Below are positions 46,120-52,475 of a DNA stretch of 56,288 bases, one piece after another (positions within the stretch are counted from its first letter, which is position 1; each line of letters starts with the position of its first letter). A program made the translations under genes and the position numbers. Where the stretch lies: the NCBI GenBank assembly GCA_947458405.1, contig CANGZW010000010.1, forward strand, positions 1 through 56,288, in the 5' to 3' direction. The notes beneath the pieces are model-generated. The model saw only the letters and a list, made by a program, of their open reading frames with translations, ran no database searches and had not been told where the DNA came from. This DNA comes from Leptospiraceae bacterium (GTDB lineage: Bacteria; Spirochaetota; Leptospiria; Leptospirales; Leptospiraceae).

Positions 46120-47271
46120 ATGTTACCGAAGGGATTTTATTCTCTGGGGAAGAATATAGGTATAAAAGATACAACTAAAGATTTCGCTGTTATATATTCA
46201 AATATCCCCTGTCATTCAGCCGCTGTTTTTACATTAAATAACTTTCCCGGAGCTCCCATTATAGTAGGTAAAGAGCACATTAAAAATGGTATTCTACAAG
46301 CTATTGTCATAAATTCTAAAAATTCAAATGTTGCAACCGGAGAAGAAGGAGTAAAAAATGCTCTAGAAATCTGTAAAGCTGTTGCGAACTCATTAAAAAT
46401 AAATTTTGAAGATGTTTTGCCCTCCTCTACAGGCGTAATTGGAGTTCCATTACCAATAGATAAAATTTTAAATGCATGTAAGACAATAAAATCTGAATTA
46501 AAAGAAGGTAATTTAGAAGAAGTTGCTGAAGCTATCTTAACAACTGATAAAAAGAAAAAGATAAGTTATAAAGTTATAAATCAAAATGGAAAGACTGGAG
46601 TAATATATGGTATTGCCAAGGGTGCAGGGATGATAGAACCCAATATGGCTACCATGTTATGTTATATTTTAACAGATATTAATATAAAAACTTCTGATCT
46701 AAAAAGTATACTTAAAAGTGCAGTGGATAAATCATTTAATTGTCTTACAATAGATTCCGATACATCTACAAGTGATACAGTGGTTGTAATGTCAAATGGA
46801 ACTAGTATAGAATTAGAAGAACCTGAATTTGAAGAATATCTAACTGAAATTTGTATTGATTTGACGAAACAAATTGCAATGGATGCAGAGGGTGCTACAA
46901 AATTAATTGAACTTAAAGTCAGTGGGGCAACTAATTTAGTACAGGCAAAAAAAATAGGTAAATCTATTTTAAATTCTCCTCTTGTTAAAACAGCCATCTA
47001 TGGTGGAGATCCTAACTGGGGAAGATTTATTATGGCTATTGGAAAAGTTTTTGATGAAAAAATCCCATTTGAAAATATATCATTAAAGTTGAATGGATTG
47101 GAAATTAAAAATGCAGATCAATCTACAAAGCATAAAATGTCGAATTATTTAAAAGAAAATTCAAAGATTTTTTTAGATGTAAATTTGGGTATGGGTGAAT
47201 TCTCTTCAATATTTTGGGGATGTGATTTAACGGAAGAATACATAAAAGAAAATGCATACTACACAACTTAA
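46120..47271 (+). CDS. argJ: Glutamate N-acetyltransferase / ornithine acetyltransferase
   Basis: This 383-residue ArgJ recycles the acetyl group from N-acetylornithine to glutamate in arginine synthesis. It is made as a precursor that cleaves itself at the Thr of MIEPNMATML (Thr178), which becomes the nucleophile. Other conserved pieces are PSSTGVIG, IDSDTSTSDT, AMDAEGATKL and GDPNWGR. The C-terminal YYTT is typical. It starts 12 bases after the kinase stop and shares TAATG with the next gene. Confidence 0.93.
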   Translation: MLPKGFYSLGKNIGIKDTTKDFAVIYSNIPCHSAAVFTLNNFPGAPIIVGKEHIKNGILQAIVINSKNSNVATGEEGVKNALEICKAVANSLKINFEDVLPSSTGVIGVPLPIDKILNACKTIKSELKEGNLEEVAEAILTTDKKKKISYKVINQNGKTGVIYGIAKGAGMIEPNMATMLCYILTDINIKTSDLKSILKSAVDKSFNCLTIDSDTSTSDTVVVMSNGTSIELEEPEFEEYLTEICIDLTKQIAMDAEGATKLIELKVSGATNLVQAKKIGKSILNSPLVKTAIYGGDPNWGRFIMAIGKVFDEKIPFENISLKLNGLEIKNADQSTKHKMSNYLKENSKIFLDVNLGMGEFSSIFWGCDLTEEYIKENAYYTT

Positions 47272-48584
47272 TGAAAGATTTTTTTGAAGAGTATTTACAA
47301 AACTTTATTCCATCTGGATTTAAGGTTAAATCTGTTTTAATTTTACTCTTCACGAGAGTAATCTTTATTACAATAGGGTTATTGATATATAATTCTATGA
47401 ATGATTTACTAAAAGATGTATATAGTAATAGGTTAATTATATCACTGATAAGTGCAATCATAACTTCTATAATTTTTTTCTTGCCACTCCAAGAATATAT
47501 GGAAATTTTTTTAAAGAAAAAAGTACTATCAGAATATTTATTTGATGACCCACTCACACTTCGATTTGCACACAAAAGATTTGAAATTAATGATTTAATT
47601 CGAAATGTATTTCCAGATATGGTAAAGGCTTCTGGAAGTTTAATGGGAAGATTGGCCGTTCTTAATCAACTAGGATACTTTGAAGCCTATACATTCACTA
47701 AAGGCAGAAGAAGAAAAATAAAAAATCAGAGATTTTTAGTTAATAAAAGACTAATGGAATATCTAATTCAAAATCATGAAGGGGTATCAATAACTGATAC
47801 TGCCGAAAGGTCAGATATAAATGAAGATTTTGCATTGTTGAAATCTAGCTACATATTGCCATTTATTTTTCGCGATAAACTTTTTGGTTTTTTATCTCTT
47901 TCTGGAATACCGGATGAACATTACTTAAAGACAATGCGAATTATTTCATCTAAGGCGGCATTGGCAATATATAATCACATTTTATCTTCTCAAATTGCAA
48001 TACATAAAAAATATAAACATGAATTTGAAGTAGCATCTCGAATTGAAGATAAAATTTTTTCTAATAAAGTTCCTATTTTTAGTGGAATTGAGATTAAAAC
48101 ATTTCAAAATGATCCTAATTTAATTTTAGAATTCTTTAAAAATGATGAAGAGGGACATGTTTTTGTTTTACTTGTTTTAAGCGGAAAAAATAGATTTAGT
48201 AGTGGGTTGGTTTCTTCGCATTTACTTGGAAAATATTACTCACAAAGTTTAGTTAGAAAAAAACATAATCATAAATCGATTAGAATTTTCACTGAAAAAT
48301 CTTTACAAGAATTATCATGGAATGAAGGATTTGAAATGATTATAGGAAGTTTTAAAGAAAATTCGACCCGTATTACATTTACACAGGTTGGACTCAATTT
48401 TCGAATAACAGATTCGGAAGTAAAATTGGATAATTTAATTTCAGTTGGATGGAAATATACACTTGATATTAAACAGGATAGTCTATTAATATATTATAAA
48501 AAAGATAAGGTTTTATCAATTAATAAAAAAATTGAAGAGATAGAAGATAATATAAAAATGCCAGATAAAAAAAATAATCGATGA
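47271..48584 (+). CDS. Two-helix membrane protein with GAF-like and degenerate SpoIIE/PP2C-like domain
   Basis: This 437-residue protein has two membrane helices (about 21-42 and 54-72) and a GAF-like region (about 100-235). A C-terminal part opens EFEVASRIEDKIFSNKVPIFSGIEI, matching the start of SpoIIE-type PP2C phosphatases. The metal-binding residues expected next are gone: GGDY-type is LILEFF and GDVSGHG-type is LVLSGKNRFS. It is therefore probably catalytically inactive. Its stop overlaps the start of an intact SpoIIE phosphatase by 4 bases, so a regulatory pseudo-phosphatase/phosphatase pair is plausible. The domain call rests on visual alignment. Confidence 0.65.
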   Translation: MKDFFEEYLQNFIPSGFKVKSVLILLFTRVIFITIGLLIYNSMNDLLKDVYSNRLIISLISAIITSIIFFLPLQEYMEIFLKKKVLSEYLFDDPLTLRFAHKRFEINDLIRNVFPDMVKASGSLMGRLAVLNQLGYFEAYTFTKGRRRKIKNQRFLVNKRLMEYLIQNHEGVSITDTAERSDINEDFALLKSSYILPFIFRDKLFGFLSLSGIPDEHYLKTMRIISSKAALAIYNHILSSQIAIHKKYKHEFEVASRIEDKIFSNKVPIFSGIEIKTFQNDPNLILEFFKNDEEGHVFVLLVLSGKNRFSSGLVSSHLLGKYYSQSLVRKKHNHKSIRIFTEKSLQELSWNEGFEMIIGSFKENSTRITFTQVGLNFRITDSEVKLDNLISVGWKYTLDIKQDSLLIYYKKDKVLSINKKIEEIEDNIKMPDKKNNR

Positions 48585-50905
48585 AGAATTTCATTCTATT
48601 ACTTTCTACAATAATAATTTATATAGTTATAGTTGTATTTATGGTATCATTTTTAGATCTTTCAAGAGCTAGGAGATTCTTATATTCATTTCCAAATGGA
48701 TATATAGCTAATACAGATACTCAAAATAATCAATTACTTAGTTTTAATTTAACAAGTGGTGAAAAATTACCTGAAATGAATTTAGAAATTGATGATTCAG
48801 TAGATGAAAGTATTGAATCAAATTTATATTCAGTTTATAGAGTTTTTTATGATTTTTTAATATTTTTTGTTATTTCAATAGTATTTTATTTTTCTTCAGT
48901 TTGGTTTTTTTTATTAATTGGTGATATTTTAATTAGTACTTTTTTTATAGATTTATCTTTTTTATTTACATCATCTATTTTTATTTTAGGATTTGATTCG
49001 TACCACTATATTTTTTATTTTTGTTTTTTTACCCTTCCATTTATAGTAATGCATTTAAGTTTTCGATTAAAAGGAAAAGATTTAACTTCAAAATGGTTAC
49101 TACCCGAAATTGCTTTAGCTAGTATAATGACATATATTGGTTACATTGGTAATAATGATCCTAGAACATTTAATAATATTTTAATAGTTGGTTTTTTTCT
49201 TTATCTACTTTCTGGATTCGGTATTATTTCTGTAGTTATTTATGATTTAATTAAATATAGTAAGTATTCATCTTCTCACCTAATAAAAAAAGCAATTCTA
49301 GCTTCCTCTATATTTATTTTGATAATGGTTCCATCTTTAATAATTTATTTTGAGCTCTTGAAAGATTACCCTAACCTGAGGTATTTGATATATTCTATCT
49401 TTATTACTTTTCCTATTTTTTTTGCATATGGCTCTATGAGATATTCATTTATCAAACAGCAATTGTATTTTAATTCCACAGTTACTTTGTTTTTCTTATC
49501 AATATTTATAATAAGTATTTATATAATAATATTCAAGATATTACAATTTATGATAATATTACCTGCAAATATACTTGATTTATTTAATGGAATTTACCTA
49601 ACATTAAGTTTATATTATGCATCTTCAATAAAGAATTTAATAAATGAAATTATTGAGTACTATACTTTCAATAGAAATACTAAATTTACAAGTGCATTAG
49701 AAGAGATGGCCGCTACTATAGCATCACCTATGACTATGAAAAGCTCCGCAAAACAATTGCTTCGTAGGGTAAATGATGTATTAAATGTTGATAGAGTCAT
49801 AGTTTTAGTCCCTGCCGAAAGGTTTCCTGATGTAGAGTTTAAAGATATTTCTGTTATGAAAATTGCTGAAAATTCTCCCATATGGGAATACTTTTCCAAT
49901 AACAAAGAAATAACAATTACATCCTATTTAATTTATGGTTCAGGAAATAGAGAAGATACACATAAATTTTTAAGAGAGTTAAATGTTCAAATTGCTTATC
50001 CCATGTTGGGCTTAGATTCTGGAAAAAAAGTTTCCTCTGTATTTTTGATTGGTGAAAAAAAGAATAATAAAAATTTTTCATTGGGTGAATTGAAATTTAT
50101 AAAAGAAGTTACTAGATTAGCTGATTTAATTATTCAAAATTATTTACTGCTACTTTCTGAAGTTGAAAAGAAAAAAATGGAAAGAGACCTAATAACAGTT
50201 CAAATTATGCAAAAAACAGTGAATCCTCTCATTTTTGATTCAGAAAGAATTGAGGATCTGGAATTTGGTTATATTTCCATCCCAGCAGTAGGTATCTCTG
50301 GGGATTATATGGATTTTATAAAGACCCCAGACAATAGACTCTGGATATTTTTAGGTGATGTGAGCGGACATGGTGTTGGGAGCGGTTTTTTGGTCAGTGC
50401 CATAAAAGCGTTGGTTCAGGATCAAATTTATCAAGAATTAGACTTGCAAACTATATTTAAAAATATAAATACTTTTTTGTTGGAAAGATATGCAGGTAAT
50501 GAATTTATGAGTCTTTTTGCTGGAATATACGATTCTAGATCTTCTATTTTTGAATATATAAATGCCGGTCACATAAGCCCAGTAGTTTTTAGGGGTTCTG
50601 ATTATAAATTTAAATTACGGGGAGGGGATCGACTCTTAGGAGTTTTGCCTACTATATTTAGTCCCGAAAAGGTTCAATTTTCAAAAAAAGATAGACTATT
50701 TTTATATTCAGATGGTGTAACTGAAACTTTTAATTCTGCCGAAAAGATTTATGGAGAGCCTAGATTGTTAGATTTTATTAAAAATAATTACTCCTTGGAG
50801 AGTGAAGAGATGGTAAAATCGATTGTTAAAGACATTGAGGAATTTAGAGGGGATGCAGAAATATCCGACGACATATCCTTGGTTTGTTTAACGAAAATTA
50901 TTTAG
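48581..50905 (+). CDS. Membrane-bound SpoIIE-family PP2C phosphatase with GAF domain
   Basis: This 774-residue protein has an N-terminal helix, a short extracytoplasmic loop, then seven or so helices to about residue 360. A GAF-like domain follows (about 375-525: QLLRRVNDVLNVDRVIVLVPAERF) and a SpoIIE-type PP2C domain (about 535-774). The active-site acids are present in GISGDYMDF, LGDVSGHGVGSG, YSDGVTE and SDDISLVCL. Such enzymes dephosphorylate anti-sigma-antagonist or similar Ser/Thr-phosphoproteins in response to a sensed signal. No anti-sigma factor or antagonist is encoded nearby. Confidence 0.88.
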   Translation: MKNFILLLSTIIIYIVIVVFMVSFLDLSRARRFLYSFPNGYIANTDTQNNQLLSFNLTSGEKLPEMNLEIDDSVDESIESNLYSVYRVFYDFLIFFVISIVFYFSSVWFFLLIGDILISTFFIDLSFLFTSSIFILGFDSYHYIFYFCFFTLPFIVMHLSFRLKGKDLTSKWLLPEIALASIMTYIGYIGNNDPRTFNNILIVGFFLYLLSGFGIISVVIYDLIKYSKYSSSHLIKKAILASSIFILIMVPSLIIYFELLKDYPNLRYLIYSIFITFPIFFAYGSMRYSFIKQQLYFNSTVTLFFLSIFIISIYIIIFKILQFMIILPANILDLFNGIYLTLSLYYASSIKNLINEIIEYYTFNRNTKFTSALEEMAATIASPMTMKSSAKQLLRRVNDVLNVDRVIVLVPAERFPDVEFKDISVMKIAENSPIWEYFSNNKEITITSYLIYGSGNREDTHKFLRELNVQIAYPMLGLDSGKKVSSVFLIGEKKNNKNFSLGELKFIKEVTRLADLIIQNYLLLLSEVEKKKMERDLITVQIMQKTVNPLIFDSERIEDLEFGYISIPAVGISGDYMDFIKTPDNRLWIFLGDVSGHGVGSGFLVSAIKALVQDQIYQELDLQTIFKNINTFLLERYAGNEFMSLFAGIYDSRSSIFEYINAGHISPVVFRGSDYKFKLRGGDRLLGVLPTIFSPEKVQFSKKDRLFLYSDGVTETFNSAEKIYGEPRLLDFIKNNYSLESEEMVKSIVKDIEEFRGDAEISDDISLVCLTKII

Positions 50906-50917
50906 AGGATATTCAAA

Positions 50918-51445
50918 TTGATTACTTTAATTTATCAAGATCAACTCTCTAAAAAAATCTCTAAGGTTGAACAGAAAAATTCAGTTCAAGAAGAAAATTA
51001 TTTTTTAGATTGTGACAGTGATTCTATTCTCATTATTAATAATTATTTAGAATATAAAGAAAATTATAAAATTAGTGAATGGAAAGACTTTTTTAAAGAA
51101 TTAATTCCAGTTGTTACTGTTAATGAAAATGGTGAAGTATTAATGCAGGCATTTATAAATTTTGATGCTTTAAATCTTTCCTTAAACACAGGGATAGCAC
51201 ATTATTATAGTCGATCAAGAGAAAAGCTATGGAAAAAAGGTGAAGAGAGTGGTCACACACAAACTATAATTTCAATATTTCATAACAAAATATATAATTT
51301 TTTTGTGTACAATGTAAATCAAAATGTTGTAGCATGTCATACGGGTTTTTATTCTTGTTTTTACCGAAAAGTTTCAAATGGAATAATTAAAGAAATCTAT
51401 CCGGGTCCTTTTAAAAAATTAAATGGAGATAAAATAATTGAATAA
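50918..51445 (+). CDS. HisI-like (phosphoribosyl-AMP cyclohydrolase) protein with altered metal site
   Basis: From TTG 50918 (GAGG 9 bases upstream) this is 175 residues. The C-terminal 120 residues match HisI, which opens the adenine ring of PR-AMP in histidine synthesis: GEVLMQAFINFDAL, GIAHYYSRSREKLWKKGEESGHTQ and ACHTGFYSCFYR with two zinc cysteines. The DxCDxD segment that should lie between these (Mg ligands and third Zn cysteine) reads IFHNKIYNF. A DCDSD sequence instead sits at residues 31-35 in an N-terminal extension. It may be inactive, repurposed, or use a relocated ligand set. No other his genes are nearby. Confidence 0.75.
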   Translation: MITLIYQDQLSKKISKVEQKNSVQEENYFLDCDSDSILIINNYLEYKENYKISEWKDFFKELIPVVTVNENGEVLMQAFINFDALNLSLNTGIAHYYSRSREKLWKKGEESGHTQTIISIFHNKIYNFFVYNVNQNVVACHTGFYSCFYRKVSNGIIKEIYPGPFKKLNGDKIIE

Positions 51446-52475
51446 TACTCTAAACAAATTAAAATCAAAGTCTTTTTTTAAAGGCTTATTAATCGGGATT
51501 CCTGTTGTATCTTTATTAATTTTTGCATTGATTGGATATCTCATAAGTTCTTATAGTAAGCCCACAGGTGATGGACAAACGAAGTTTGATTTAGCAATAG
51601 AAGAGGGTGAAGGATCCGGTAGTATAGCTAAAGAATTAAGAAAAAATAATATGATTCGCTCATCAAAATATTTCTTATTTTTACTTAAAATAAATGGAAA
51701 TACTAATAAAATAAAACATGGAATTTACGAATTAAATAATGGTCAATCAGCTTCTGAGATAATGAATTTGCTTGTCTCGGGAAAAGTTAAAATGTTAAGT
51801 TTTACCATCCCGGAAGGTTATCATAACAGACAAATTGCGGAACTTTTATTTAATAAAAAATTAATTGAGTCGAAAGACGATTTTTTTAGGGTAGCCGAAG
51901 ATAAAGAACTTATAAATAAATATAAGATACCGGCTAAAAGTGTGGAAGGATATCTATTCCCTGAAACATATGTGATGCCAGTCGACTACAAGATTGAGAA
52001 GATTGTTGAGATGATGTTAAAAAGATTTTATAAAAATTTATCCACAATTTCTGAGTCTAAAGATGTATTACCAGAAGAACTTCATAAGAAGGTGATCATG
52101 GCATCTATTGTTGAAAGAGAAGCCAAAAAAAAAGAAGAGCAACCATTGATGGCTGGAGTGTTTGAAAAACGACTAAAAATAAATATGCCATTTGAAAGTT
52201 GTGCAACAGTTCAATATTTATTCGAAAAGCCTAAAAAAAGATTATTGGAGAAAGATTTATTAATTGAATCTGATTACAATACATACCTGCATAAAGGATA
52301 TCCACCCGGACCTATTTCCAACCCGGGACTACCAGCTATTAAGGCCGCTTTTACTCCTGTGGAATCAGATAATTTATTTTTCTTAGTAAAACCAGATGGT
52401 TCTCATTATTTTTCTAAAACACATAATGAACATTTAGAAGCGAAAAAAAAATATATAGATGTACTATACCAATAA
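51438..52475 (+). CDS. mltG: Endolytic transglycosylase MltG (YceG-like)
   Basis: From TTG 51438, overlapping the HisI-like gene by 8 bases, this is 345 residues. It has one N-terminal membrane helix (about 16-34), a LysM-like segment with EGEGSGSIAKELRKNN and FTIPEGYHNRQIAELL, and the catalytic domain with VEGYLFPETY, the catalytic Glu in MASIVEREA and YNTYLHKGYPPGPISNPG. The usual LQSDPTVxYG block reads FESCATVQYL. MltG cleaves nascent glycan strands at the inner membrane and sets their length. Confidence 0.9.
   Translation: MNNTLNKLKSKSFFKGLLIGIPVVSLLIFALIGYLISSYSKPTGDGQTKFDLAIEEGEGSGSIAKELRKNNMIRSSKYFLFLLKINGNTNKIKHGIYELNNGQSASEIMNLLVSGKVKMLSFTIPEGYHNRQIAELLFNKKLIESKDDFFRVAEDKELINKYKIPAKSVEGYLFPETYVMPVDYKIEKIVEMMLKRFYKNLSTISESKDVLPEELHKKVIMASIVEREAKKKEEQPLMAGVFEKRLKINMPFESCATVQYLFEKPKKRLLEKDLLIESDYNTYLHKGYPPGPISNPGLPAIKAAFTPVESDNLFFLVKPDGSHYFSKTHNEHLEAKKKYIDVLYQ

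Follow-up and report, generated by a model that had tools for sequence, protein, structure and literature searches.

The window, which is the whole stretch of 56,288 nucleotides analyzed here, encodes a HisI homologue of 175 residues that lacks the DCDxD metal motif at its canonical position and carries it in an N-terminal domain instead. This combination of an N-terminal DCDxD with loss of the motif in place is a confirmed observation and no coincidence. Regarding its interpretation, the protein is likely to be the phosphoribosyl-AMP cyclohydrolase of Leptospiraceae, the family to which the genus Leptospira belongs, in the form of a fused, asymmetric pseudodimer. In this assignment, catalysis, metal binding, a contact between C32, C140, and C147, the duplication route, and the oligomeric state are inferred. 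The gene and its parts are as follows.

50904 to 50909, plus strand: likely ribosome-binding site AGAGGA, 8 nt 5' of the TTG start (sequence)
50918 to 51445, plus strand: hisI-like gene, 175 aa, TTG start, sole PF01502 homologue of the genome
50918 to 51040, plus strand: N-domain, residues 1-41, with strands at residues 2-8, 14-20, 27-30, and 36-41, a predicted HisI-like minimal beta-grasp (AF2, hhalign, isolated L045 N-domain model)
51008 to 51022, plus strand: DCDSD, residues 31-35, the relocated metal motif, in the turn joining the last two N-domain strands as in canonical HisI
51041 to 51100, plus strand: linker, residues 42-61, of lower model confidence (pLDDT about 70)
51101 to 51394, plus strand: C-domain, residues 62-159, with PRA-CH/HisI fold (Foldseek, AF2)
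51209 to 51253, plus strand: retained substrate-binding loops SRSREKLWKKGEESG, residues 98-112 (alignment)
51284 to 51298, plus strand: NKIYN, residues 123-127, at the canonical DCDxD position, metal ligands lost (alignment)
51335 to 51358, plus strand: retained CHTGFYSC, residues 140-147, with two zinc cysteines and the general-base histidine (roles from PMC8102479)

The HisI genes of the relatives start with ATG at the position equivalent to the TTG of the window gene. The earlier note had located DCDSD at 51008-51022, and these coordinates are correct. It had further described the metal motif as missing in place, which the alignment bears out: N123-K-I-Y-N127 (51284-51298) aligns gaplessly to DCDGD of 1ZPS, the best solved relative of the PRA-CH domain. 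GEVLM and CHTGFYSC, which it had listed as kept, are present, and the protein retains GEVLM, SRSREKLWKKGEESGHTQ, and ACHTGFYSC. Its Pfam PF01502 match scores 89 bits, above the cut-off of 27, while the NCBIfam equivalog NF000768 reaches 116.5 bits and stays below the cut-off of 126. The criteria of a HisI are met by the CHxG...SC cysteines together with the catalytic His (invariant in 7/7 sequences), by the SRS and WxKGExS substrate loops, and by the fold, as Foldseek superimposes the C-domain on 1zps_A with an E-value of 2.1e-11 and an rmsd of 1.2 Å over 101 columns. A further criterion that fails, besides the equivalog cut-off, is a DCDxD between GHxQ and ACHTG, where NKIYN stands instead.

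The relocated arrangement is common to all seven Leptospiraceae genomes that have hisI, namely the window genome and six others, whose HisI proteins share 37-48% identity with the window protein (loci L045, L046, and L047 are contigs of genomes G004, G006, and G005, and are Leptospiraceae in the GTDB collection). In each of the seven extensions, one strand terminates in I-[YK]-Q-[DS] and the next surrounds an invariant Ile; [IVL]DCDxD[SAT] follows these two. None of the seven proteins has DCDxD in the canonical place. Besides Met1, the invariant N-domain columns (n = 7) are I5, Q7, I14, D31, C32, D33, and D35. The pentamers at the canonical site are all different and unconserved (NKIYN, SRLYK, SQKGS, LSETP, ETKPV, DDKNE, and NEKEA); Cys is absent from them, and Asp occupies one of the 21 Asp positions. 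CHxG, SC, and the SR..W loop are retained in every member. The 89 other HisI sequences compared have DCDxD in place, with 87 to 89 of the 89 agreeing at each position. By chance, a DCDxD would be expected in a 60-aa extension with a probability of about 7e-5, or 7e-4 if the extension's own composition is used. The earlier note had offered two readings, a relocated metal site or a chance motif within a repurposed protein. Of the two, relocation is favored, since the N-terminal motif and the in-place loss co-occur in all seven family members and across three gene neighborhoods; coincidence is disfavored by the invariance of DCDxD in these seven, by the status of the gene as the sole hisI, and by the presence of the rest of the pathway.

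Across 393 Spirochaetota genomes, full-length N-domain matches are limited to the seven Leptospiraceae. A search of the class with the N-domain only returned the same seven, always joined to HisI; no free-standing N-domain, and none in another family of the class, turned up. Several matches were discarded on inspection. Among the early-starting matches in G122, G174, and G177, the two that were checked (G122 and G177) proved to be fusions of HisA, HisI, and HisE that have DCDxD at its usual site. L087 (Omnitrophota), aligned from residue 8 of the query onward, is a canonical HisI, and an Acinetobacter plasmid match with 86% query coverage turned out to be a normal hisI of 139 aa next to folE2. 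Single-chain HisA + HisI + HisE fusions of about 435 aa, with DCDxD in place, occur in another Spirochaetota family (L169, L170, and L171).

In a C-domain tree (103 columns), six of the seven relocated C-domains group together with an SH-aLRT of 98, nested among sequences of the DCDxD type and separate from those with NCEQN. The seventh, from G002, falls outside this group on a branch of great length, and the tree alone thus does not prove a single origin. The NCEQN types are a separate observation: in 22/22 sequences (L013-L030, L037-L044, and L174, from the class's other families and from one further family, f44), NCEQN takes the place of DCDxD in the sole HisI, with the Asp triad replaced and the Cys kept. 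These proteins have a longer CHTKxxxGxxRxSC segment and form a separate, well supported clade (SH-aLRT 99).

Structure models were used to place the extension. The AF2 model of the window protein has a pLDDT of about 94 over residues 1-40 and a pTM of 0.83 over its 175 residues; judging from this pTM, the predicted N-domain can hardly be other than confidently placed relative to the C-domain. The window protein's own extension contains no helix in this model. The isolated L045 N-domain, modeled from a four-sequence alignment containing no canonical HisI, is predicted as beta-beta-alpha-beta-DCDED-beta with an only moderate pLDDT of 70.7. Searched with Foldseek against the PDB, it finds HisI structures with the highest probabilities (1zps_A, 0.95 with a TM of 0.57; 6j22_A and 6j2l_A, 0.92; 1zps_B, 0.91). 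Protein G B1 domains follow with probabilities of 0.66 or less, below HisI, and stand alongside HisI by E-value. As the E-values for this 60-aa domain are weak (0.2-0.7, and 0.2-0.4 for the matches named here), the model matches support homology of the N-domain with HisI without proving it. Linear di-ubiquitin and ISG15, weak matches of the full model with a TM of about 0.17, were set aside.

Profile comparison points to the same relationship. With hhalign, the seven N-domains aligned with 53 canonical HisI sequences at a probability of 95% (E = 2e-8 for one comparison); gap-stripped columns gave 93.5%, and E ranged from 2e-8 to 2e-7 overall. The alignment pairs QDxxSKxI with QDxxTGxV and DCDxD with DCDxD, and its one gap of 26 columns falls where the helix end and the substrate insert would be. 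The signal comes mostly from the DCDxD strand itself. With the motif block fixed and the other columns shuffled, the median score was 27.8 vs 40.7 for the real alignment, which a single shuffle out of 300 reached (40.9). Strands 1-2 without the motif scored 17.7 in the same register, compared to a maximum of 15.6 over 300 column shuffles, and their register was likewise unchanged with the motif masked; the motif-free probability is just 6-8%. A Pfam search with the N-domains alone yielded nothing meaningful and no recognition as HisI.

The window gene is the only hisI homologue of its genome. The earlier note had proposed a genome search for a second, canonical hisI; none was found, and the profile search of the window genome, which is 96% complete, gave no second PF01502 match, which supports relocation. 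The genomes of the six relatives have one PRA-CH match each. Further, hisG, hisE, hisB, hisD, and hisA/F are found in 8/8 family genomes, with two HisA/HisF-type proteins per genome, the second match in the window genome being cut by the contig end. In the window genome, hisG, hisE, hisD, hisB, and hisA/F lie on contigs other than that of the window, in agreement with the earlier remark that no his genes are near the window gene. In G007, a Leptospiraceae assembly of 620 contigs with 7% contamination, hisI was not detected while hisG, hisE, hisB, hisD, and hisA/F are there; this absence is probably an assembly gap. Because the window protein is the sole HisI homologue next to an otherwise present set of his genes, it is probably the working HisI of its genome, with catalysis and metal binding inferred in the absence of an assay.

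Two genes flank hisI in the same direction.

48581 to 50905, plus strand: upstream neighbor, SpoIIE-type phosphatase (profile match), outside the enzyme
51438 to 52475, plus strand: downstream neighbor, MltG/YceG endolytic transglycosylase (profile match), its start overlapping the hisI stop

The overlap of hisI and mltG amounts to eight bases. Five of the seven genomes (including G003-G006) retain the order SpoIIE phosphatase-hisI-mltG, while G001 and G002 do not; the relocated-motif trait is thus independent of the operon. Of the envelope/signaling operon that had been proposed for the gene, such neighbors indeed occur in 5/7 genomes, but they represent a mere gene neighborhood that is absent in G001 and G002. 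In G003-G006, the three genes are separated by short gaps or overlap, despite their unrelated functions. Upstream in the window and in the same direction lies argJ (ornithine acetyltransferase, 46120-47271), another amino-acid gene beside signaling genes.

Both chains of plant HISN2 contribute ligands to the catalytic zinc, one of them Cys126 of its DCDxD and the other Cys142 together with Cys149 (PMC8102479). A second metal is coordinated by the DCDxD aspartates, phosphate and adenine are held by W-x-KGETS, and the general base is His143 (PMC8102479). In known HisI, too, the DCDxD cysteine and the CHTG/SC cysteines belong to separate subunits. HisI dimers are obligate via a strand swap, and different monomers contribute the substrate and metal sites (PMC1949818). 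In the Leptospiraceae protein, the presumed N-terminal copy kept only DCDxD and the C-terminal copy everything else, which we therefore read as a one-site pseudodimer. Since the extension itself has a predicted HisI-like fold, a feature unseen by the earlier note, the relocation would become a fused pseudodimer with complementary losses.

As to its origin, we incline, with some reservation, toward a lineage-specific duplication of hisI that led by complementary catalytic losses to a cyclohydrolase with one site on a single chain, its formerly homodimeric site having become intrachain and asymmetric. An ancestral hisI would have been duplicated in tandem or fused with its own copy. Fusion would have brought two HisI half-sites into a single chain, leaving one of the two sites free to decay. 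The N-terminal copy may then have been reduced to a minimal beta-grasp retaining just the DCDxD turn, with one zinc Cys and the Asp triad for Mg, while the C-terminal copy would have kept the SRS and WKKGES loops, the remaining pair of zinc cysteines, and the His that acts as general base, and lost its own DCDxD. Both halves of the canonical trans-subunit site would thereby reside in one polypeptide, resulting in one active site per chain. Given the sites from different monomers described for HisI (PMC1949818), the pairing of half-sites in the fused form may be for structure to settle. No intermediate carrying both motifs was found.

The same observations could be accommodated by other readings. 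DCDxD might be truly relocated and catalytic while the extension is an unrelated hairpin, obtained by convergence or as a one-strand copy, that works either in cis or in trans inside a homodimer of the usual HisI type. The profile match is strongest in the motif strand alone, the window extension has no helix, and the Foldseek E-values are weak, all of which leaves room for such a hairpin; however, the motif-free QDxxSKxI aligns with QDxxTGxV of HisI in register and above all 300 shuffles, and the order of elements as well as the position of the motif in the same turn are those of HisI. We consider this reading unlikely, while it deserves to be kept in mind.

More distant is a repurposed, non-catalytic HisI homologue, for example an envelope or signaling regulator, in which the N-terminal DCDxD forms a separate metal or structural site. 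Loss of the metal ligands in place and the SpoIIE phosphatase and MltG neighbors would fit it, yet the genome has no other HisI despite the presence of hisG, hisE, hisB, hisD, and hisA/F, the remaining catalytic residues are invariant in 7/7 proteins, and G001 and G002 have a different neighborhood, which renders this reading decidedly improbable. Least credible, to the point that we give it hardly any weight, is an active cyclohydrolase that holds zinc on the two C-terminal cysteines and His only, with a changed Mg requirement and the N-terminal motif outside the active site. The sister-family HisI with NCEQN for DCDxD presumably works, so that the Asp triad is not immutable, but NCEQN keeps the in-place Cys in all 22 sequences, whereas the Leptospiraceae proteins have no in-place Cys and an invariant one only in the N-terminal motif. 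Moreover, the exact conservation of D-C-D-x-D would be left unexplained. The fused pseudodimer remains our preferred reading.

The relocated-DCDxD HisI is a new variant of a known enzyme; no paper on this form was found in the open-access literature, subscription literature being outside the search. HisI has so far been treated as an obligate homodimer with its metal ligands conserved in place throughout, and motif-based annotation would label the Leptospiraceae HisI defective. If true, the fused pseudodimer would show a shared intersubunit active site splitting between fused copies through complementary loss.

Compared to canonical HisI (PF01502; 1ZPS, M. thermautotrophicus), the window protein has the C-domain fold, the substrate loops, the CHTG and SC cysteines, and the His in common, but it lacks the in-place DCDxD, has an extra DCDxD-bearing N-domain, and probably forms one site per chain rather than two per homodimer. 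With HisIE and plant HISN2 (6J2L, 7BGM) it shares the PRA-CH domain, and the zinc site of HISN2 is shared between two chains (PMC8102479). In those proteins HisI is fused to HisE, whereas the window HisI has a HisI-like domain as its partner, with HisE encoded by a separate gene on another contig. Zur-regulated HisI paralogues (PMC2770081) are likewise HisI homologues outside his operons; in contrast to the window HisI, which is the only copy, they are second copies with zinc ligands in place. The gene elongations of hisA, hisF, hisB, and hisD joined two paralogous modules within a histidine gene, as is inferred here for hisI, those of HisD having kept different functions, and no sign of internal repeats was seen in other his genes (PMC7284861). 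These elongations are universal and are placed before LUCA, whereas the proposed hisI case was found only in Leptospiraceae.
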